Shown in pieces: positions 4,187-63,883 of a stretch of 64,000 nucleotides of DNA. Numbering within the stretch: the first letter of the stretch is position 1; each line of letters begins with the position of its first letter. This DNA is from Ectothiorhodospiraceae bacterium. Its GTDB lineage: Bacteria > Pseudomonadota > Gammaproteobacteria > Nitrococcales > Aquisalimonadaceae. The notes beneath the pieces were generated by a model, which was not told where the DNA came from, did no database searches, and saw nothing but the letters and a program-made list of their open reading frames with translations. Made by a program: the position numbers and the translations under genes. The stretch covers positions 1 through 64,000 of the forward strand of contig PXAT01000112.1 of assembly GCA_003565775.1 (NCBI GenBank), in the 5' to 3' direction.

Positions 4187-4635
4187 GAGCGGGTACCCTC
4201 GTCGGATTGCGCCGCCGTCTCCAGCGGCACGCCGTCCTGGAAGCCTTCGCTGCCGTCATCATAGAAATCATGCTTCCAGACCGGCAGGCGCAACTTCAGG
4301 GTATCGATGGCATAGCGCGCACCATCAAAGGCATCGCCGCGATGCGGCGCGCGCACCACGACCAGCACGCTGGCCTCACCGATAGCCAGATCCCCGGTGC
4401 GGTGGACGATCCGGCATTCGCTGACCGGAAATTTCTCCAGCGTTTCCTGTTCCAGTTCGGTCAGCACCTTCTCGGCCATCGGTCCGTAGGCGGAATAGCG
4501 CATGCCGGTGACGCCCTTGCCGCCGTGATGGTTGCGCACGATACCGCCGAACACCACCAGGGCACCGCAGGCATCGTTCTCGGTTTCGCGCAGCAACTGG
4601 TCCATATCCAGCGGCTGATCGGTCATTCTGCTCAT
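4183..4635 (-). CDS. moaE: Molybdopterin synthase large subunit
   Basis: Catalytic subunit of molybdopterin synthase, which moves sulfur from the MoaD thiocarboxylate onto precursor Z (cyclic pyranopterin monophosphate). The 150-aa protein has the family signatures VVFGGIVRNHH, IVHRTGDLAIGEASVLV, and LKLRLPVWKHDFYDDG with the conserved lysine. It is 15 bp downstream of moaD and overlaps moaB by 4 bp. Confidence 0.95.
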   Translation of the reverse strand: MSRMTDQPLDMDQLLRETENDACGALVVFGGIVRNHHGGKGVTGMRYSAYGPMAEKVLTELEQETLEKFPVSECRIVHRTGDLAIGEASVLVVVRAPHRGDAFDGARYAIDTLKLRLPVWKHDFYDDGSEGFQDGVPLETAAQSDEGTRS

Positions 4636-4650
4636 GACTACCTCGACGGT

Positions 4651-4896
4651 TCAGCCACCACTGACCGGTGGCAACAGCACCAGCGGGCGGCTCGTATCAA
4701 TCCTCTGATCCTGCCGGATCAGACTGTCACCCTGCGCACAGGCAACGCGCTGCAGGTAAGGCGCCAGCGCCGGATAATCACGACCCAGCACGGCCAGCAC
4801 CGCGGCCGCAGTCGGTTCGTCCGGCAACGTGTCCAGCTGCAGGCGCCGATCACCGGCGGCTTGCTGCAGAACACCGAAAAGTTCGACCTCCAGCAT
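4651..4896 (-). CDS. moaD: Molybdopterin synthase sulfur carrier subunit
   Basis: Small ubiquitin-fold sulfur carrier, 81 aa, ending in the required Gly-Gly (LLPPVSGG) whose C-terminus becomes a thiocarboxylate. First gene of the moaD-moaE-moaB operon. Divergent from sufE, with a 144-bp intergenic region that should hold both promoters; I could not assign them. Confidence 0.94.
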   Translation of the reverse strand: MLEVELFGVLQQAAGDRRLQLDTLPDEPTAAAVLAVLGRDYPALAPYLQRVACAQGDSLIRQDQRIDTSRPLVLLPPVSGG

Positions 4897-5040
4897 CAGT
4901 CACTCCGTACTCGTGGGGTTCGCCCGTGGCATCACCCGGGCTCTGCCTCGAAGTATGCCACAGCGGGTGCTTCCGGAGCCGACGGACAAGCCGTCGTGTT
5001 ACGATACACAGCTGTTTGCAGCAAATCGCAAGGCATCGTC

Positions 5041-5457
5041 ATGCAACTGGATGAAGTGGTCGAAAGTTTCGAATTTCTCGACAACTGGGAAGACCGATAT
5101 CGCCTGCTGATCGATCTGGGACGAGAGCTTCCGGAGTTTCCGGACGAGGCCAGAACCGAGGATTTCCGGGTCGAGGGCTGTGTCAGCAATGTCTGGCTGG
5201 TGCATGACGTCGAGAGCGGATCGCCGCCGCGGCTGACCTTTCGGGCCGACAGCGACGCCTTCATCGTCAAGGGTCTGATCGCCCTGATCCTGATGGCCTA
5301 TTCCGGACGGACGCCGGCCGAAATCCGGGAGACGGACATCGAGGGCCTGTTCCGGAAACTGGGCCTCGAGCAGCAGCTCACCCCCAACCGGCGAAACGGA
5401 TTTTTCTCGATGGTGGAACGCATTCGTCAGATCGCGGAGCAGGCTCAGGCGGCTTAA
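5041..5457 (+). CDS. sufE: SufE/CsdE family cysteine-desulfurase sulfur acceptor
   Basis: Accepts persulfide sulfur from a cysteine desulfurase and passes it to the Fe-S assembly scaffold. The 138-aa protein has the SufE core, including RVEGCVSNVWL with the acceptor cysteine, and the conserved GLIALILMAYSGRTPAEI helix. The start is the ATG at 5041; the longer upstream frame is antisense to moaE and moaD. No desulfurase partner gene lies nearby. Its TAA stop is the first TAA of a dispersed palindromic element (TTAAGGAAGC). Confidence 0.9.
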   Translation: MQLDEVVESFEFLDNWEDRYRLLIDLGRELPEFPDEARTEDFRVEGCVSNVWLVHDVESGSPPRLTFRADSDAFIVKGLIALILMAYSGRTPAEIRETDIEGLFRKLGLEQQLTPNRRNGFFSMVERIRQIAEQAQAA

Positions 5458-5612
5458 GGAAGCGCTGACATATTCCCGCGTCTGCGCCCGAGACCGGCTT
5501 TGGTCATCTGGCAAGGCGCGGTGCCGGTTCGGTAGTGATTCTACCGGGCCGGCAGTGGACCAGCCGGGCCGGTGGCACAACGCCGCCCGAGGGCAAATTC
5601 GGCCGGGGCTGT
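5454..5612. repeat. Truncated dispersed palindromic element at sufE stop
   Basis: Starts TTAAGGAAGCGCTGACA, then continues as the reverse complement of the right half of the full element at 19057-19334 (CCGCGTCTGCGCCCGAGACC and onward). The inner hairpin is intact: CGGTAG, loop TGATT, CTACCG. An extra segment (CAGTGGACCAGCCGG) interrupts it near 5555. The loop is the complement of that in the 82-217 copy, so these two copies are close relatives. The right boundary is approximate. The rest of the gap to 5663 shows nothing I recognise. Confidence 0.8.
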
Positions 5613-19056: not shown

Positions 19057-19334
19057 TTAAGGAAACGCTGATCTATTGCCACGCCTGCGTTGGAGTCCGC
19101 ATTTTTTCCGAGGCAAGGCGCGCTGCGCGGCGCCGCAGTCATTCTGCGGTCAAGCAGCGCAACACGGCATTCGGGAAAAATGCGGCCCAACCCGAAGGGC
19201 CCGGCCGGTTTTGGCCCCTGTCGGTGTTGCGCCACCGGCCCGGTAGCTCGGGCTACCGAACCGGCACCGCGTCTTGCCAGATGACCAAAACCGGTCTCGG
19301 GCGCAGACGCGGGAATAGATCAGTGTTTCCTTAA
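19057..19334. repeat. Full-length dispersed palindromic element (copy A)
   Basis: A 278-bp imperfect palindrome. Termini: TTAAGGAAACGCTGATCTAT at the left and the complement of TTAAGGAAACACTGATCTAT at the right. Left arm: outer stem CCGCATTTTTTCC / GGGAAAAATGCGG, inner stems GCGCTGC / GCAGCGC and CCGCAG / CTGCGG. Right arm: outer stem CCGGTTTTGG / CCAAAACCGG, inner stem CGGTAG / CTACCG. Together it could fold as a stem with two branched arms. It lies 80 bp past the tpx stop and 124 bp before the GNAT-nitrilase start, with no coding potential of its own. Confidence 0.9.
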
Positions 19335-24251: not shown

Positions 24252-24884
24252 TCAGACTTCATCGTGCTCCGGCTCCGGATCGTCCGGGACCGTCGGCTCG
24301 ACCTCGTCCACAGACTCGTCACCACGGACCCCGGCACAGAAGTCACTCCAGTAGTCCGCCGCCGCAGTGCCGTCCGCCTGTGCCTCGGCATCGCCGAGGG
24401 GTGCGCGGAATGTCCGGCCCTCAAGCCAGTCCTCGACGCCGACCCGGCAGACCCAGGGGGTCAGCTGCTCGACCAGCACCGACTCCTGCCACCACTGCTC
24501 CCGCGGTACCGCCGTCAGCGCAGCGGCCAGCATCAGTATGGCAATCACCAGCACGCCGCGGGCGAGGCCGAAGAACAAACCGATGAAGCGATCGGTGCCA
24601 CTCAGACCGGTACGGCCGACCAGCTGGCTCGCGAAGTAATTGAGAATACCGCCGAGAATCAGCACGGCGACGAACAGCGCCGCAAAGGCCGCGCCAATGC
24701 GCAGACTCGGCGAGGCAATGACCCCTTCCATGGTGCCTGCAACCGGCTCGGCAAACTGCAGACCGATCCAGATCGCGGCAATCCAGACCACCAGCGACAG
24801 GGTTTCACGGACAAAGCCGCGAACCAGGCTGATCACGACTGACAGACCGATCACGGCGAGTATGGCGAGGTCGAGCCAGTTCAT
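24252..24884 (-). CDS. cvpA: CvpA family inner-membrane protein
   Basis: Membrane protein of the colicin V production family, 210 aa, with four hydrophobic helices (starting MNWLDLAILAVIGLSVVISL) and a polar, acidic C-terminal tail. Start at 24884 is chosen from the family-typical MNW-DL start; the longer upstream frame is unlike the family. It precedes purF as in other gammaproteobacteria. The function is poorly defined (envelope homeostasis). Confidence 0.92.
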   Translation of the reverse strand: MNWLDLAILAVIGLSVVISLVRGFVRETLSLVVWIAAIWIGLQFAEPVAGTMEGVIASPSLRIGAAFAALFVAVLILGGILNYFASQLVGRTGLSGTDRFIGLFFGLARGVLVIAILMLAAALTAVPREQWWQESVLVEQLTPWVCRVGVEDWLEGRTFRAPLGDAEAQADGTAAADYWSDFCAGVRGDESVDEVEPTVPDDPEPEHDEV

Positions 24885-24983
24885 GGGCGATCCGGAAATG
24901 AGGGGCGGCGAAGGCTCCGAAGCCGGAATGGTAGCAAAGCGGTCACGGGCCGGAAAGAAAACCGACACACGCTGGAATCGATC

Positions 24984-25258
24984 TTGAGGAGACGCTGATT
25001 AATTCGCACGTTCGCGTTGGCATCGCATTTTTCCGAGGCCAGGCGCGCTGCGCAGCGCCGCAGTCACTCTGCGGTCAAGCAGCGCAACACAGCAGTCGGG
25101 GAGAATGCGATGCCAACCCCTTGGGGCTCGGCCGATTCTGGCCCCCGGCGGTGTTGCGTCGCCGGCCCGGTAGCGACGGCTAACGAATCGGCACCGCGCC
25201 TTGCCAGGCTGCCAGAATCGACTCGAGCGCGAACGCAGGTAAATCAGTGTCTCCTTAA
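24984..25258. repeat. Full-length dispersed palindromic element (copy B)
   Basis: A 275-bp copy with the layout of 19057-19334. Termini: TTGAGGAGACGCTGATT and the complement of TTAAGGAGACACTGATT. Left-arm outer stem is a perfect 13 bp (TTGGCATCGCATT / AATGCGATGCCAA); right-arm outer stem CGATTCTGG / CCAGAATCG is perfect. Both differ from copy A by paired changes that keep pairing. The inner left hairpins are identical to copy A. It lies in the SPOR-cvpA gap, and the SPOR stop codon TAA (25255-25257, minus) is in its right end. Confidence 0.9.
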
Positions 25259-25914
25259 CGATGCCGCACCACGATGCTGTCAATACCCGCCTCGTCACTG
25301 ACTCGCTGTTTCAGGGTATCCGCGTCCCCCCGGGTGGCAACCGGGCCGACACGGAGTCGGTAGATCTCACCATCGGCGTCGCTGGACTCGACCACAAAGG
25401 CCGGCAGGCCTTCGTCACGAAGGCGGTCCCGGAGCCCCATGGCATTGTCGCGACTGCGGAAGCTGCCGACCTGCACGGCGAATCCGTCATCCTCGGTCAC
25501 CGTCGGCTCGGGTTCGGATTCCGGTTCCGGCTCGGGCTCGGGCTCGCGTTCCGGCTCAGGCTCCGGTTCCGGTTCGACCAGGGCCGCATCGTCCGACGGC
25601 GTCGAGTCGGTCGGCGCCTCATCCAGCATCTGATCGGGGTCATCGCCGGGCAGCACATCGGGCATCGCCGACGGCTCGTCGGGAGTCGCCTGTTCATCAT
25701 CCGGTTCGCGCACCGGGATACGTTCGAGCATCGGGGTGTCATCGTCGCCATCCCGCTCAGCCGCATCTTCCGCGGTCGGTGCCGGCGGGATTTCCATCGG
25801 CAGATCGAGCGCCTGACGCTCCACCGGGCCGCGCAGCAGCATGGGCAGGAAAATCACCGCCAGCGCGACGATCACGATCGCGCCGACAAGACGTTGCTGA
25901 TGCCGCTTCTCCAA
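25255..25914 (-). CDS. SPOR-domain membrane protein (DedD-like)
   Basis: A 219-aa inner-membrane protein: one N-terminal helix (IVIVALAVIFLPMLL), a long Pro/Glu/Asp-rich periplasmic linker with PEPE-type repeats (about residues 110-137), and a C-terminal SPOR domain (FAVQVGSFRSRDNA... YRLRVGPVATRGDA) that would bind denuded septal peptidoglycan. The TTG start at 25914 is supported by AAGGAG 8 bp upstream. Fits the folC-SPOR-cvpA-purF order; possibly the local DedD. Confidence 0.88.
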   Translation of the reverse strand: MEKRHQQRLVGAIVIVALAVIFLPMLLRGPVERQALDLPMEIPPAPTAEDAAERDGDDDTPMLERIPVREPDDEQATPDEPSAMPDVLPGDDPDQMLDEAPTDSTPSDDAALVEPEPEPEPEREPEPEPEPESEPEPTVTEDDGFAVQVGSFRSRDNAMGLRDRLRDEGLPAFVVESSDADGEIYRLRVGPVATRGDADTLKQRVSDEAGIDSIVVRHR

Positions 25915-45063: not shown

Positions 45064-45137
45064 CTGGCCTGGGCGCAGCGACGGCCGGACGTTTAACGGC
45101 CGCGCGGCAAAAATGCGGCAAATATCCCCGGTATGCA

Positions 45138-45165
45138 TTGGCGAAGCCCCGGTATTGGGTATACA
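45138..45165 (+). promoter_or_regulatory. Candidate promoter of the cold-shock gene
   Basis: TTGGCG (45138) and TATACA (45160) are separated by 16 bp. This predicts a 5' leader of about 120 nt before the cold-shock ATG, in line with the long leaders of cspA-type genes that respond to temperature. No cold-box motif was identified. Confidence 0.5.
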
Positions 45166-45293
45166 TTTGGAGCTAGCAGAGTCAGCCCTGTCGCAAGATC
45201 CGGTAGTCTTCCCGTGTTGGTAGTCACTCCAGGATGTCGTTCAGTCAAGACCTGCTACATGTTGTTAACAGTATCCGAAGGAGCAGACTCCAG

Positions 45294-45497
45294 ATGATGA
45301 CCGGTACCGTGAAGTGGTTCGATGAAAGCAAGGGCTTCGGCTTTATCTCACCGGAAGACGGCGGCAAGGATGTGTTCGTGCATTTCTCCGCCATTCAGGG
45401 CGACGGCTTCCGCACCCTGACCGAAGGTCAGCGCGTGCAGTTCGAAACCCAGACCACCCCGAAGGGTCTGGCCGCTGCCAACGTCTCCGCCGTCTGA
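45294..45497 (+). CDS. Cold-shock domain protein
   Basis: Single-stranded nucleic-acid-binding RNA chaperone of the CspA family, 66-67 aa. Contains both RNP motifs: [11 protein letters not shown] (RNP1) and [10 protein letters not shown] (RNP2). AAGGAG lies 9 bp before the first ATG (45294) and 12 bp before the second (45297). Followed by a strong terminator. Confidence 0.96.
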
Positions 45498-45514
45498 ACG
45501 GTCGGAACTTGTGC

Positions 45515-45544
45515 AAAAAAACCCCGCCGCGGCGGGGTTTTTTT
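45515..45544. terminator. Strong bidirectional Rho-independent terminator
   Basis: A-rich run, stem CCCCGCC / GGCGGGG, then a run of seven Ts. Works for the cold-shock gene and, read from the other strand, for the operon ending at 45571. Confidence 0.95.
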
Positions 45545-45570
45545 ATGTCTGTCCAGCGGTTCCCCGACGC

Positions 45571-58675: not shown

Positions 58676-58780
58676 CAATACTTTCTCGCCTGCTGATCGG
58701 ATAGGTCCGTGCGTCTGAATCCCGTAACCTCGGAGGAGGGACACCGGTTTCAATGGCGACGTTTTCAGGGAGCTCGGTCG

Positions 58781-60184
58781 ATGGCCACACTCGAATTTCT
58801 CGGTGCCGTAGGCGAAGTCACCGGATCATGCTATCGACTGATACCGGACGAGGCGGACGCCGAAGGCTCGATTCTGCTCGAATGCGGCATGCATCAGGGC
58901 GGTGCCGCTGCCGACGCCGCCAATCGCGAAGATCTCACGTCGCTGGCAGGGACGCTATCGGCCGTCGCGCTGTCCCACGGCCATCTGGATCACGCCGGCC
59001 TGCTGCCGAAACTGGTCCGGGACGGCTACCGCGGGCCGATTCACTGCACCAACGGCACCCGGGCGCTGCTCGAGATCATGCTTGCAGACGCAGCGATGGT
59101 CATGGAACGCGACACGGACTGGCAGAACCGGAGGCGGCGTGGTCGCGAACCGCTGACACCGATCTATACCATGGACGACGTCGAGCGGACCCTCGATCAG
59201 TGCCAGGGGCACGGCTACGGTGAAGTGGTTCATCTGCCGTCGGGAATTCGCCTGGTCTTCCGCGATGCCGGACATATCCTCGGTTCGGCCTGCGTCGACC
59301 TCATGGTGCCGTCCGCCGGACGTGAACGACGGCTCGTTTTCTCGGGAGATCTCGGCAATCCCGACTCGGTACTGATGCGCGCCCCGGAACGCCTTCAGGA
59401 TGCGGATATCGTCCTGATGGAAAGCACCTACGGGGACCGCGACCACCGCTCCCTGGAGGAGACACTTCTGGAGTTCCAGCAGGTACTGAACGAGGCACAC
59501 AAGGGCGGTGGCAATGTGCTGATCCCCGCGTTCGCGGTCGGTCGCACGCAGGAAATCCTGTATCACCTCAGTCGTCTGCACCACGCCGGTTCCTTGCCCC
59601 AGACACGGATCTTTCTCGACAGCCCGATGGCCATTCGCGTGACCGATCTGTATGCAAGATATCGGGAGCTGCTCGACCCCGAAGACCTGCGCATCCTGCA
59701 TCAACTGGCCGCCGGCGATCCGGCGCAGTATCTCCCGGGCCTGCGCCGCACGAGAACCGTTGAAGAGTCCATGGCCATCAACCGGGTGCATGGCGGCGCC
59801 ATTATCATCGCCGGCGCCGGCATGTGTAGCGGCGGACGCATCCTGCATCATCTTCGGGAGAACATCGGCAAGCGGGCCACCCGGATCATCATTGTCGGGT
59901 TTCAGGCTGCAGGCACCCTCGGTCGACAACTGGTGGATGGCGCCAGCTCGGTACGCATTCTCGGTGATACCCTGGACGTTCGCGCCTCCGTCCATACCAT
60001 CGGCGGCTTTTCCGCCCATGCCGGCAAGAGCCAGTTGCTGGCCTGGGCCGGCGCCTTCCGCAATCGACCCCGGTTCTACCTGGTCCATGGTGAGCCCGCT
60101 GCACAGGAGGCCCTGCAACAGGCAATGCAGGACCAGCAGATGGATGCCCGCATTCCCGCCCCCCTGGACAGGATCGACCTTTGA
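58781..60184 (+). CDS. Beta-CASP metallo-beta-lactamase RNA exonuclease/endonuclease
   Basis: A 467-aa MBL-fold nuclease of the CPSF73/YSH1-like group: SHGHLDHAGLLP (the HxHxDH zinc motif), RDAGHILGSA, FSGDLGN, ESTYGDRDH, beta-CASP motif MCSGGRILHHL, and the C-terminal histidine motif GFSAHAGKSQL. Probably an RNA 3' or 5' processing nuclease. Start at 58781 has AGGGAG upstream. Its TGA stop is the first TGA of an element end (TTGAGGAGAC). Confidence 0.88.
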   Translation: MATLEFLGAVGEVTGSCYRLIPDEADAEGSILLECGMHQGGAAADAANREDLTSLAGTLSAVALSHGHLDHAGLLPKLVRDGYRGPIHCTNGTRALLEIMLADAAMVMERDTDWQNRRRRGREPLTPIYTMDDVERTLDQCQGHGYGEVVHLPSGIRLVFRDAGHILGSACVDLMVPSAGRERRLVFSGDLGNPDSVLMRAPERLQDADIVLMESTYGDRDHRSLEETLLEFQQVLNEAHKGGGNVLIPAFAVGRTQEILYHLSRLHHAGSLPQTRIFLDSPMAIRVTDLYARYRELLDPEDLRILHQLAAGDPAQYLPGLRRTRTVEESMAINRVHGGAIIIAGAGMCSGGRILHHLRENIGKRATRIIIVGFQAAGTLGRQLVDGASSVRILGDTLDVRASVHTIGGFSAHAGKSQLLAWAGAFRNRPRFYLVHGEPAAQEALQQAMQDQQMDARIPAPLDRIDL

Positions 60185-60250
60185 GGAGACACGGATTTAT
60201 TCCCGCGTCTGCGTTGGAGAGCGCATTGTTTCCGAGGCAAGGCGCGCTGC
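60181..60250. repeat. Truncated palindromic element after the exonuclease gene
   Basis: TTGAGGAGACACGG, then TTATTCCCGCGTCTGCGTTGG and GTTTCCGAGGCAAGGCGCGCTGC, matching the left arm of copy A but stopping before its return strand. The exonuclease stop TGA (60182-60184) is inside the first bases. The rest of the gap to 60429 holds no other element piece that I could see. Confidence 0.8.
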
Positions 60251-60429: not shown

Positions 60430-63400
60430 TTGACTCTCGACACTATCGACATTCTCTGGATTGCCCTTTGTGCCGGTCTCGTCTTCATGATGCAGGCGGG
60501 ATTCCTTTGCCTTGAATCCGGACTGACGCGAAACAAGAACGCGACCAATGTGGCGATCAAGAATGTCGCGGACTTCGGCGTCGCCGTCGCACTGTTCTGG
60601 GCCTTCGGGTTCGCTCTCATGTTCGGCATCAGCGCCGGCGGCTGGGTCGGCAGTAGTCATTTCCTCACCAATGTCGGCCACGGGGCAGAAGCCTGGCTGG
60701 CCGCATTCTTCCTGTTTCAGGTCATGTTCTGCGCCACCGCCGCGACCATCGTCTCCGGCGCAGTGGCCGAGCGCATGCGCTTCGTCTCCTATCTGATCGT
60801 TACCGCGCTGGTCGCGGGACTGATCTATCCCGTCTTCGGCCACTGGGCCTGGGGCGGCGTCTTTCACGGCGAACCCGGCTGGCTTGCAGCTCTCGGTTTC
60901 GTCGACTTTGCCGGTTCGACCGTGGTGCACGGCGTCGGCGGCTGGGTCGCCCTCGCGGCCGTTCTCATCATCGGGCCACGCGCCGGCCGGTTTACCGATG
61001 ACCGGAAAACCGGCTATGCCATCAATGCAGGCAATCGGCCGATGGCCATGCTCGGCGGGCTGCTGCTGTTTCTGGGCTGGTTCGGTTTCAATGGCGGCAG
61101 CACCTTCGCCTTCGATCAGACGGTACCCGGCATTCTCACCAATACGACGCTGGCCGCGGTATCCGGCTCGCTGATCGCGATGGCGCTGGGCTGGCGTCTG
61201 CGCGGTTACGGCGAAGTGGTGTATGCCCTGAACGGCAGCATTGCCGGCCTGGTGGCCATTACCGCCTCGGCCCATGCGGTCAGCTCAACCCAGGCCATGC
61301 TGATCGGGCTCGCCGGCGGCACGGTCATGGTGCTGACCGATGACTGGCTGCAACGCAAGCGGATCGACGACGCGGTGGGTGCGGTGCCGGCCCATCTCGC
61401 GGCCGGCATCTGGGGCACGGTGGCCGTGGCCCTGTTTGGCGACCTGGACACCCTGAATACCGGACTCTCACGCGGTGAGCAGCTCGGCGTGCAGATCATG
61501 GGCATCGTCGTTTGCGGCGCGTGGGCCTTCGGCGTTGCCTGGATCGTCCTGCGCGGCATTGATCGCTGGCAGCCGCTGCGGGTCAGCAGCGAGGCAGAGC
61601 GCATCGGTCTCAATGTGTCCGAGCATGGTGCCCACACGGAACTGCAGGCCCTGCTGGAAACCATGCAACAGCAACAGACGGGGCAGGACCTGGCGGTGCG
61701 CGCTCCGGTCGAACCATTCACCGAAGTCGGTCAGATCGCGAGCAGCTACAACCGCGTGATGGACGCGCTGGAACGCGCTGTCGGGCAAACCCGCTCGATC
61801 ATTCGCGATATCCGGGACGGGGTCGTGACCACTACGCCGGAAGGTCTGGTGCGCAGCCTGAACCCCGGGGCCGAGGAGCTGTTCGATGTCGCGGCCGGAG
61901 AGGCCATCGGGCAACCCCTGACTTCCCTGCTCGGCGAGCATGGCATCGCGAACAGTCAGGGCTGGAAACCCGGTGCTCGTTTCGAATTTCAGCTTTCGCG
62001 GGAGTCCGGTAGAACTCGCGTGCTGGAGGTGTCGGTCAGCGAAAGCGCGTTGCCCGGAGAAACCCTGTTGACAGGCATGGTGCGGGACGTCACCGAACGC
62101 AGGCGTATTCAGGACGAGATGCAGCACCAGCGAGAGCTGGCCGAGGTGACCCTTGCCTCGATCGGCGACGCCGTGATCACGACCGATGAGTCGGGCACGG
62201 TCAAATACCTGAATCCGGTGGCGGAACTGCTGACCGGCTGGCAACTGCGGGAAGCGCGGGGCATGGATGTCAGGCAGATCTTCAGGTTGCGCGACGAACT
62301 CACCGGTGACTCACTCGACAACCCGGCAAGAACCGTACTGGCCATCGGCCGGGAAAGCCGCCGCCCGGGACATGCCCTGCTCATCCGTCAGGACGGCGAG
62401 ACCATCGCGGTCCGCGATATCGGCGCGCCCATCCGTGACCGGCATGGCCATCTGATCGGTTGTGTGCTGGTCTTTCATGACGTCAGTGCGACCCTGCAAC
62501 TCACCCGTGAGCTTAGTCATCAGGCCAGCCATGATGCCCTGACCGGCGTGCCCAATCGCCGCGAGTTCGAACGCCGCTTGGGCGCTCTGCTCGGCACCAA
62601 ACGATTGGCCGACAGCCATCATGTGCTGTGTTATCTCGATCTGGACCAGTTCAAGGTCGTCAATGACACCTGCGGGCATGTCGCCGGCGACGAACTGCTG
62701 CGGCAGGTCACCGCCCTGCTGCGGGGCCGGATCCGCGAAAGCGACGTGCTGGCCCGACTGGGCGGTGACGAATTCGGCATCCTGTTTCTCAACTGCCCGC
62801 TGGACAAGGCCATGGGACTCGCCGAAGGCCTGCGCCAGAGCATCCAGGAGTTCCGCTTTTCCTGGGACGACAGGAGCTTCGCCATCGGCGTGAGCATCGG
62901 CGTGGTGCCGATGGACGGGGAACAGACCGACCTGGGCAGACTCCTGGCGACCGCCGATACCGCCTGCTATGCCGCCAAGGAAGCCGGGCGCAATCTGGTC
63001 TGGCTATACCGCGAAAACGACAGCGACGTACAGGCACAGCGGGGGCAGATGCAATGGGTCAGCCGCATCCGCCAGGCGCTTGACCAGGATCGATTGCGCC
63101 TTTTCGTGCAACCGATCGTGGCGCTGGAACGCGAGCATGTCGGTCCCTCGCATTATGAAATCCTGGTCAGGCTTGAGGAGGACGGTGAACTGATCGCCCC
63201 GGGCTCTTTCATCCCCGCAGCCGAGCGTTACGGCCTGATGGTGGAAATCGACCAGTGGGTGATCGGCAATACCCTGTCATGGCTCGGTGATGCCTGCCGC
63301 AGCGGCGAACAGCCGCAGGCAACCTTCTGCATCAATGTCTCCGGCGCGTCACTCAGCAGTCCTGCCTTCCGGCAGATGGTGGTGGCCAAACTACGGGACA

Positions 63401-63819
63401 GCAACCTCTCCGCCGGCGCCGTCTGCCTCGAGATCACGGAAAGCGCGGCCATCGCCAACCTGTCCAAGGTGGTGGACCTTATCCGCCAGCTGAAACCACT
63501 GGGATGCACTTTCGCGCTCGATGATTTCGGCAGCGGCCTGTCCTCGTTCGCCTATCTCAAGGCCCTGCCGGTGGATTATCTGAAGATTGATGGCAGCTTC
63601 GTCCGTGATCTCGAACATGACCCGGTGGATCTGGCCATGGTGCAGGCGATCAACACCATCGGCCATACGATGGAGCTGAAAACGGTCGCCGAATTCGTCG
63701 AAAGCGAGGCGATCCTGGAGCGGTTGCGCGAGATGGGCGTCGACTACGCGCAGGGCTACCATATCGGCAGACCACAACCGCTGCTGGACCTGCACCCGGT
63801 GCGGATGATGCCGCGTTAA
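60430..63819 (+). CDS. Ammonium-transporter-like sensor fused to PAS, GGDEF and EAL domains
   Basis: A 1129-aa protein. Residues about 1-390 form an Amt/Rh channel-like membrane domain (QAGFLCLESG; twin-His positions in TVVHGVGG and VPAHLAAGIWGT). Two PAS-type domains follow at about 455-555 and 570-690, then GGDEF (about 695-855; LARLGGDEFGIL intact) and EAL (about 870-1120; YEILVRLEE, LEITESAAI, DDFGSGLSSF, KTVAEFVES). Both cyclic-di-GMP synthase and phosphodiesterase sites look intact. TTG start at 60430 is needed for the first helix. TAA stop is in an element end. Confidence 0.9.
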   Translation: MTLDTIDILWIALCAGLVFMMQAGFLCLESGLTRNKNATNVAIKNVADFGVAVALFWAFGFALMFGISAGGWVGSSHFLTNVGHGAEAWLAAFFLFQVMFCATAATIVSGAVAERMRFVSYLIVTALVAGLIYPVFGHWAWGGVFHGEPGWLAALGFVDFAGSTVVHGVGGWVALAAVLIIGPRAGRFTDDRKTGYAINAGNRPMAMLGGLLLFLGWFGFNGGSTFAFDQTVPGILTNTTLAAVSGSLIAMALGWRLRGYGEVVYALNGSIAGLVAITASAHAVSSTQAMLIGLAGGTVMVLTDDWLQRKRIDDAVGAVPAHLAAGIWGTVAVALFGDLDTLNTGLSRGEQLGVQIMGIVVCGAWAFGVAWIVLRGIDRWQPLRVSSEAERIGLNVSEHGAHTELQALLETMQQQQTGQDLAVRAPVEPFTEVGQIASSYNRVMDALERAVGQTRSIIRDIRDGVVTTTPEGLVRSLNPGAEELFDVAAGEAIGQPLTSLLGEHGIANSQGWKPGARFEFQLSRESGRTRVLEVSVSESALPGETLLTGMVRDVTERRRIQDEMQHQRELAEVTLASIGDAVITTDESGTVKYLNPVAELLTGWQLREARGMDVRQIFRLRDELTGDSLDNPARTVLAIGRESRRPGHALLIRQDGETIAVRDIGAPIRDRHGHLIGCVLVFHDVSATLQLTRELSHQASHDALTGVPNRREFERRLGALLGTKRLADSHHVLCYLDLDQFKVVNDTCGHVAGDELLRQVTALLRGRIRESDVLARLGGDEFGILFLNCPLDKAMGLAEGLRQSIQEFRFSWDDRSFAIGVSIGVVPMDGEQTDLGRLLATADTACYAAKEAGRNLVWLYRENDSDVQAQRGQMQWVSRIRQALDQDRLRLFVQPIVALEREHVGPSHYEILVRLEEDGELIAPGSFIPAAERYGLMVEIDQWVIGNTLSWLGDACRSGEQPQATFCINVSGASLSSPAFRQMVVAKLRDSNLSAGAVCLEITESAAIANLSKVVDLIRQLKPLGCTFALDDFGSGLSSFAYLKALPVDYLKIDGSFVRDLEHDPVDLAMVQAINTIGHTMELKTVAEFVESEAILERLREMGVDYAQGYHIGRPQPLLDLHPVRMMPR

Positions 63820-63852
63820 GGAGACGCTGATCCATGCGCATGTTCGCGTTGG
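63816..63852. repeat. Truncated palindromic element after the Amt-GGDEF-EAL gene
   Basis: TTAAGGAGACGCTGATCCAT, then GCGCATGTTCGCGTTGG, matches the left end of copy B (CGCACGTTCGCGTTGG) and then breaks off. The gene's TAA stop (63817-63819) is the first TAA. Confidence 0.75.
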
Positions 63853-63855
63853 ATC

Positions 63856-63883
63856 GACCAGCGGTTTCCACGAAACGCTGGTC
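63856..63883. terminator. Hairpin after the Amt-GGDEF-EAL gene
   Basis: GACCAGCGGTTTC / GAAACGCTGGTC, a 12-bp stem with one bulged base and a 3-base loop, follows the truncated element. No T-tract. The remaining sequence to 64000 shows no supported gene. Confidence 0.5.

Follow-up and report, generated by a model that had tools for sequence, protein, structure and literature searches.

A bacterial MITE is commonly regarded as a shrunken transposon whose interior has no meaning. MITEPsy1 of Pseudomonas syringae has IS5-like ends and a CTAG/YTAA duplication and has been caught transposing (PMC3189936). A repeat of about 275 bp in the DNA analyzed here, a 64-kb stretch called the window, resembles MITEPsy1 in having no ORF, IS5-type terminal inverted repeats (TIRs) and a 4-bp CTAG/YTAA duplication. 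It differs in that MITEPsy1 is 100 nt long, has few copies, is narrowly distributed and is not known to have a two-hairpin core. The repeat is probably a non-autonomous IS5-type MITE with a conserved two-hairpin core, which is the best explanation of the data as a whole.

Copies of the repeat in the window and its genus

The window contains two full copies of the repeat, 80% identical to each other, and four partial copies. The original prediction, made from sequence alone, had claimed full copies at 19057-19334 and 24984-25258, with TIRs enclosing two hairpin arms, and truncated copies at 82-217, 5454-5612, 60181-60250 and 63816-63852. The full copies held without change of coordinates, and the truncated copies held with slightly adjusted ends (83-217 or 76-217, 5454-5607, 60181-60250 and 63816-63856). 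The copy at about 76-217 sits at the very start of the contig (stretch 1-217). There is no complete element among the four partials; 60181-60250 is a truncated left half and 5454-5607 is a scrambled right half. The parts of the window copies are listed with bit scores for the conserved hairpin cores.

19057-19334, + strand: full copy 1, including both target duplications (TTAA at 19057-19060 and TTAA at 19331-19334)
19061-19088, + strand: copy 1 left TIR (GGAAACGCTGATCTATT...), 5' side of stem P1
19303-19330, - strand: copy 1 right TIR, 3' side of stem P1
19089-19191, + strand: copy 1 arm 1, a long hairpin (from the fold)
19112-19170, + strand: conserved hairpin core of copy 1 arm 1 (match to covariance model R3, 68.5 bits)
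19199-19302, - strand: copy 1 arm 2, a long hairpin inverted relative to arm 1 (from the fold)
19219-19278, - strand: conserved core of copy 1 arm 2 (R3 match, 35.7 bits)
24984-25258, + strand: full copy 2, ends TTGA/TTAA, between a cvpA-like gene (24252-24968) and a SPOR-domain gene (25255-25914) whose stop codon comes from the right TTAA of the copy
25037-25095, + strand: hairpin core of copy 2 arm 1 (65.9 bits)
25146-25205, - strand: hairpin core of copy 2 arm 2 (42.1 bits)
76-217, + strand: right-hand half copy with the arm 2 core (104-162) and the right TIR, close to the start of the contig; the end of the copy supplies the stop codon of a minus-strand ORF (215-1477)
5454-5607, - strand: scrambled right half with TIR and arm 2 pieces; TTAA at 5454-5457 contains the stop of a SufE-like gene (4207-5457)
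60181-60250, + strand: left half with TIR and the start of arm 1; TTGA at 60181-60184 contains the stop of a beta-CASP/RMMBL gene (58709-60184)
63816-63856, + strand: left TIR fragment; TTAA at 63816-63819 contains the stop of an ORF (60430-63819)

Elsewhere in the window, 45083-45545 is a cspA thermoregulator RNA (RF01766, 94 bits), and a second one is present in locus L215 of genome G009.

The window's own genome (G000; 3.2 Mb, 215 contigs, 65% G+C) was searched with a 21-base core allowing up to three mismatches, and the same pattern reversed served as the control. At least 111 matches were found with the core and none with the reversed pattern, which confirms the claim of many copies in the genome. 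BLAST of G000 gave 318 first-look candidates, of which 40 were scored; most of these are complete or nearly complete copies bounded by TTAA/CTAG. All four genomes of the genus (G000-G003) have the repeat; G001 is Methylonatrum kenyense AMT 1. A covariance model of arm 1 (R1) matched at least 98 places in G000, 69 in G001, 91 in G002 and 28 in G003. These counts correspond to roughly one copy per 30-45 kb in G000 and G001, and the repeat makes up about 1% of both genomes. The genome searches scored at most 40, 98 or 15 places per genome. Many copies are at contig ends in G000 (for example C3, C127, C154 and C185). The repeat is probably a cause of breaks in this assembly, and the true copy number is therefore likely to be higher. 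The repeat fulfills the size and structure criteria of a bacterial MITE in being shorter than 500 bp (about 275 bp), lacking a transposase and having many dispersed copies.

The ends carry 4-bp target duplications

The flanks of 95 full copies were read to characterize the insertion sites. There are 23 copies with TTAA/TTAA, 19 with CTAG/CTAG and one with TTAA/CTAG, and the others carry changes. Concordant TTAA or CTAG pairs thus number 42 compared with a single mixed pair. Both tetramers are palindromes, so these flanks alone cannot distinguish duplication from a longer inverted repeat. Other copies are flanked by non-palindromic direct repeats, namely TTAG/TTAG (L148, L228), CTAA/CTAA (L227), CAAG/CAAG (L224), TAAA/TAAA (L230) and ATAA/ATAA (L212), which indicates duplication rather than inverted-repeat extension. 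Copy L217 has inverted flanks (TAAA/TTTA). In tandem arrays, two copies that differ in subtype have a single tetramer in common, which is the pattern that insertion of a new element into an existing copy's tetramer would produce. These results show the target duplications and fulfill the 4-bp target site duplication criterion of a bacterial MITE.

The 28-bp TIR stem is paired in 92.8% of alignment cells, which fulfills the TIR criterion. Mismatches in the TIRs are near balance within the genus (64 G-T/T-G versus 48 A-C/C-A), with no clear strand preference. A transposase that recognizes the two ends independently would not need the strong covariation between left and right TIRs, and the proposed reading does not explain this covariation. 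One M. kenyense copy (L115:613-889) has the usual core with a very different, almost perfectly paired terminal stem (GGGCACCATGGACATAATTTCGC), which we interpret as end replacement within one genome.

An IS5 family element shares the ends of the repeat

Two sister-genus genomes, G008 (four copies) and G010, carry an intact 1,202-bp IS with a 327-aa transposase that is assigned to the IS5 family by NCBIfam NF033581 (340 bits, cut-off 140). The ends of this IS are GGAAACGCTGATTTATTCGCCTGC and GGAAGCGCTGATCTAATGCC, and the end of the repeat is GGAAACGCTGATTTATTCGCACGC. The flanks of the four G008 copies are CTAA/CTAA twice, TTAG/TTAG and CTAA/CTAG. These data show a partner IS that matches the repeat in ends and target, as required for a bacterial MITE. 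Only the ends of the repeat and the IS were seen to agree. The repeat as a deletion derivative of its IS was considered and rejected; none of the IS copies gave a hairpin match with the arm model R3. Similar ends are found in related IS5 elements from plasmids of other proteobacteria. Adjoining an IS5 copy in G010 is a 181-bp one-arm element (L242:891-1071) with TTAA-GGAGCCTCTGATCTATTCGCATGGGG ends and a core match of 57.6 bits.

M. kenyense has a fossil of such an IS5 transposase, interrupted by a stop, near TTAGGGAAATGCTGATTTATTTC, and nothing more complete was found in the window's genus. In none of its four genomes did the searches find an intact IS5 transposase whose ends match, so the repeat is not proven to be mobile there at present. 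IS5-type transposases (PF05598, PF01609) are absent from G001-G003. Two PF05598/PF01609 transposases of G000 (contigs C198 and C214) were rejected as partners as their ends do not match. These contigs (L162, L074) are small, carry DDE transposases and look richer in A+T than the remainder of the genome; they may be assembly contamination.

Copies occupy non-orthologous sites in sister species

Contig C1 of G001 is collinear with the window, and the two share about 75% DNA identity. The orthologous places in G001 and G002 contain neither of the full window copies in full, and a G001 copy in the syntenic block (C1:154298) has no counterpart in the window. A check for empty sites in the sister species found none that could be aligned base by base because the intergenic DNA is too diverged. 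The polymorphic-insertion criterion of a bacterial MITE is thus fulfilled, although without a base-exact empty site. Identity between copies of different species reaches 96%, and 28 of 88 copies have their nearest relative in another species. The non-orthologous sites and the cross-species identity point to either repeated movement from several source lineages after the species split or horizontal spread. The closest sampled pair within one genome is only 96.8% identical, which gives no sign of a very recent burst. The G001 site orthologous to that of window copy 1 (C1; L056:11026-11085) has a palindrome of about 57 bp with both TIRs and no arms, possibly an arm-less derivative or an independent short element.

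Versions of the element gave no blastn match in plasmids (PLSDB) or phages, and two IMG/VR contigs carrying an 18-mer had no convincing arm. Matches from the 18-mer scan outside Methylonatrum were discarded; most look like chance, and the profile gave only two weak matches there.

The TIRs, 4-bp duplications, non-orthologous sites, shared tandem tetramers and matching IS5 support a MITE-like element moved in trans, one of the two possibilities raised in the original prediction. Mobilization in trans is inferred.

Insertion sites often coincide with stop codons

The 64-kb window has only 17 TTAA/CTAG sites, and 6 of these are within repeat copies. The tetramer, or a mutated form of it, contains the stop codon of the adjacent gene at five of the six window copies (the minus-strand ORF at 215, the SufE-like gene at 5457, SPOR at 25255, beta-CASP at 60184 and the ORF ending at 63819). 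At the 65% G+C of this genome, YTAR is rare, and it frequently overlaps TAA or TAG stops, so insertions fall at gene ends. We infer that the duplicated TTAA/CTAG would regenerate the stop codon and that such insertions would therefore cost little. Stop-codon targeting offers a concrete reason why elements of this kind could come to occupy about 1% of a compact genome without harming it; that this tolerance underlies the success of the repeat is inferred.

Gene context was determined with a simple ORF caller, and the counts are therefore approximate. Copies between co-directional genes are equally divided between orientations (15 same, 15 opposite); 10 copies are between convergent genes, 9 are between divergent genes and 1 is inside an ORF. 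The 15:15 orientation and the lack of an excess of copies at convergent gene ends lend no support to the other possibility raised in the original prediction, structured RNAs that mark the ends of transcripts.

The interior folds into two paralogous hairpins

The fold of 19057-19334 was compared with dinucleotide shuffles, giving z scores of -10.0 for plus-strand RNA, -12.0 for minus-strand RNA and -9.1 for DNA. Both arms are inverted, paralogous copies of one hairpin with the core GGCAAGGCG..stem..CGCAACGCC, and together with the TIR stem they form a three-way junction. The interior is not a shrunken transposase gene. Full-length relatives with 71-76% identity are present in other genera of the family, and nearly all that were folded have a TIR stem and two long arms.

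Covariation was measured in a MAFFT alignment of 21 copies from nine genomes using the fold of one G010 copy. In this alignment, 89.9% of cells pair. Both sides changed in 63 of 106 pairs compared with 40.3 in shuffles and 14-23 in slid controls, and 297 cells have double changes compared with 106 and 35-44, respectively. None of 500 shuffles reaches any of the five covariation measures. The arm 1 basal stem of G004 and G008 is only 15-23% identical to that of G010, yet 17-18 of 20-21 pairs form. Across 61 distinct arms, 96.7% of stem A is paired, with many pair types. The alignment behind these class-wide stem A figures was fitted to the model and is biased towards it; an alignment-free reading without this bias gives 85% pairing versus 60% for re-paired arms. 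These results show the structure and its compensatory changes across genera.

Each arm has its excess of G-U (or G-T) pairs on its own core strand, even though the two arms are oppositely oriented. The ratio of G-U to A-C on the core strand is 93:13 in arm 1 and 49:24 in arm 2 (24:49 on the plus strand), and the class-wide ratio for stem A in core orientation is 16:2 over 61 arms. The pattern fits a symmetric use of one hairpin per strand better than a single transcript. This is merely suggestive, given that the copies lack independence and that a single strand was used to choose the structure. The minus-strand fold is on average about 9 kcal/mol more stable, and it is the better one in 77 of 88 copies, which again lack independence.

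Two G004 copies (L213 and L221) that are otherwise about 97% alike differ by a clean inversion of arm 2 (0.13 direct versus 0.91 inverted). We interpret this as an intramolecular flip across the arm's own stem. It indicates that hairpin processes at the DNA level act on the palindromes and could explain part of the covariation.

The core is more widely distributed than its ends

R1 finds the hairpin in 18 of 54 genomes of the order. The wider covariance model R3 matches 76 of 369 sampled Gammaproteobacteria genomes in 58 genera, with E-values down to 1e-14. Most R3 matches in fetched loci form inverted pairs separated by about 104 bp, which is independent evidence against chance matches. The core is found within elements having at least seven different ends, most beside YTAR, and is more widely distributed than any single kind of end. 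This feature could not be seen by the original prediction. Ends of the GGAAACGCTGA type frame the core in the window and in the f1, f2 and f4 genomes. The others are CTAG-TACTCTTTCAAGG, CTAG-TGTACCGCGCC, CTAG-TGTCCTGTCACAC, CTAG-TGGGCCAAGTGG, CTAG-GGCCTGTTGAGG, CAAG-TGGTCCATCAAT and CTAA-GGAAGGCCTGCACGAATC. End types were grouped by eye, and the transposases serving those not found in the window are undetermined. One-arm elements are also present (L302, L307 and L310). Fourteen small genomes of one genus in the same order (g15, G038-G051; 1.2-2.2 Mb) have no match and several larger relatives do; loss with genome streamlining and never having gained the core are both possible.

The repeat has no Rfam match at gathering score, and permissive searches gave only sub-threshold, chance-like matches. 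A lack of further copies or a match to an Rfam family would have refuted the original prediction, and neither was the case. The open-access literature searched has no description of the core, of MITEs in this host or of similar two-arm repeats; a precedent in subscription journals or ISfinder is not excluded. These data show the distribution of the core, and the family can readily be annotated with the covariance model.

Discussion

The proposed mechanism starts with an IS5-family transposase made elsewhere that would recognize the TIRs of the repeat, about 20-30 bp long. The transposase would insert the element at TTAA or CTAG (YTAR) and duplicate the 4 bp. The duplication would return the stop codon, and the element would stay harmless and abundant. 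On each DNA strand, the core may be recognized as a hairpin. The middle of the repeat is its more widely conserved part, common to elements with different ends, meaning that either the core aids transposition or something in the host uses it. We infer that the core is most likely selected as a strand-specific hairpin used in mobility; selection itself is an inference. Unlike the well-supported MITE reading, the role of the core as a DNA hairpin, an RNA or a neutrally maintained palindrome is not settled by the data.

A bolder reading, which remains possible, is that one two-hairpin DNA module of ancient origin is spread across Gammaproteobacteria and has acquired at least seven different YTAR-type ends. 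On this view, selection would act on the module itself, and a shared factor, from the host or a transposase, would recognize its strand-specific hairpins and make whatever ends surround it mobile or tolerated.

Neutral upkeep is another explanation that may apply. The repeat would still be a MITE, but template switching on hairpins during replication would keep the arms and TIRs complementary by correcting one side from the other, and the fold would have no function. The nearly balanced TIR mismatches (64 G-T/T-G versus 48 A-C/C-A) and the arm 2 inversion in G004, which shows that the palindromes behave as DNA hairpins or inverted repeats, support this view. However, correction accounts for pairing and not for the conserved unpaired motifs (AAGG.., CAAG, AAC), and it leaves the class-wide conservation of arm length, arm number and the spacing of about 104 bp unexplained.

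The repeat is unlikely to be a structured RNA in which a transcribed three-way junction acts on the neighboring mRNA (as a terminator or in stability or processing) and mobility serves only to spread it. In its favor are the very stable fold, the compensatory changes in nearly every helix and the excess of G-U over A-C in stem A in core orientation (16:2, 61 arms). Against it, orientation to co-directional genes is 15:15 with no convergent-end excess, and no Rfam family matches. Because the arms are mutually inverted and each has its G-U excess on its core strand, one transcript cannot show the excess in both arms. A REPIN-like element moved by a RAYT (Y1) transposase would account for the dispersed, intergenic layout of two inverted hairpins but is very unlikely, as G000 and G002 have no Y1_Tnp gene (G001 and G003 have one each, that of G001 weak) and the repeat is about 275 bp long with IS5-type TIRs and 4-bp duplications, which REPINs are not known to have.

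Comparison with known systems

REPINs resemble the repeat in that their mobile unit is two inverted hairpins, and they differ in being RAYT-dependent, shorter and without IS5 TIRs (PMC3116915). ERIC, RUP and Correia/NEMIS are likewise small intergenic TIR elements with stable folds, but they have TA termini, a length of about 100-200 bp and one long stem (PMC2229807; no direct sequence comparison). The CIR elements of Caulobacter and Brucella are intergenic and have two long inverted repeats as two arms; in contrast to the repeat, they lack TIRs, have a GANTC motif and belong to another class of bacteria (PMC2229807). The IS5 family IS of G008 and G010 (NF033581) differs from the repeat in having a transposase and no detected hairpin core, and has the TIR GGAAACGCTGATTTATTCG and the YTAR duplications in common with it.
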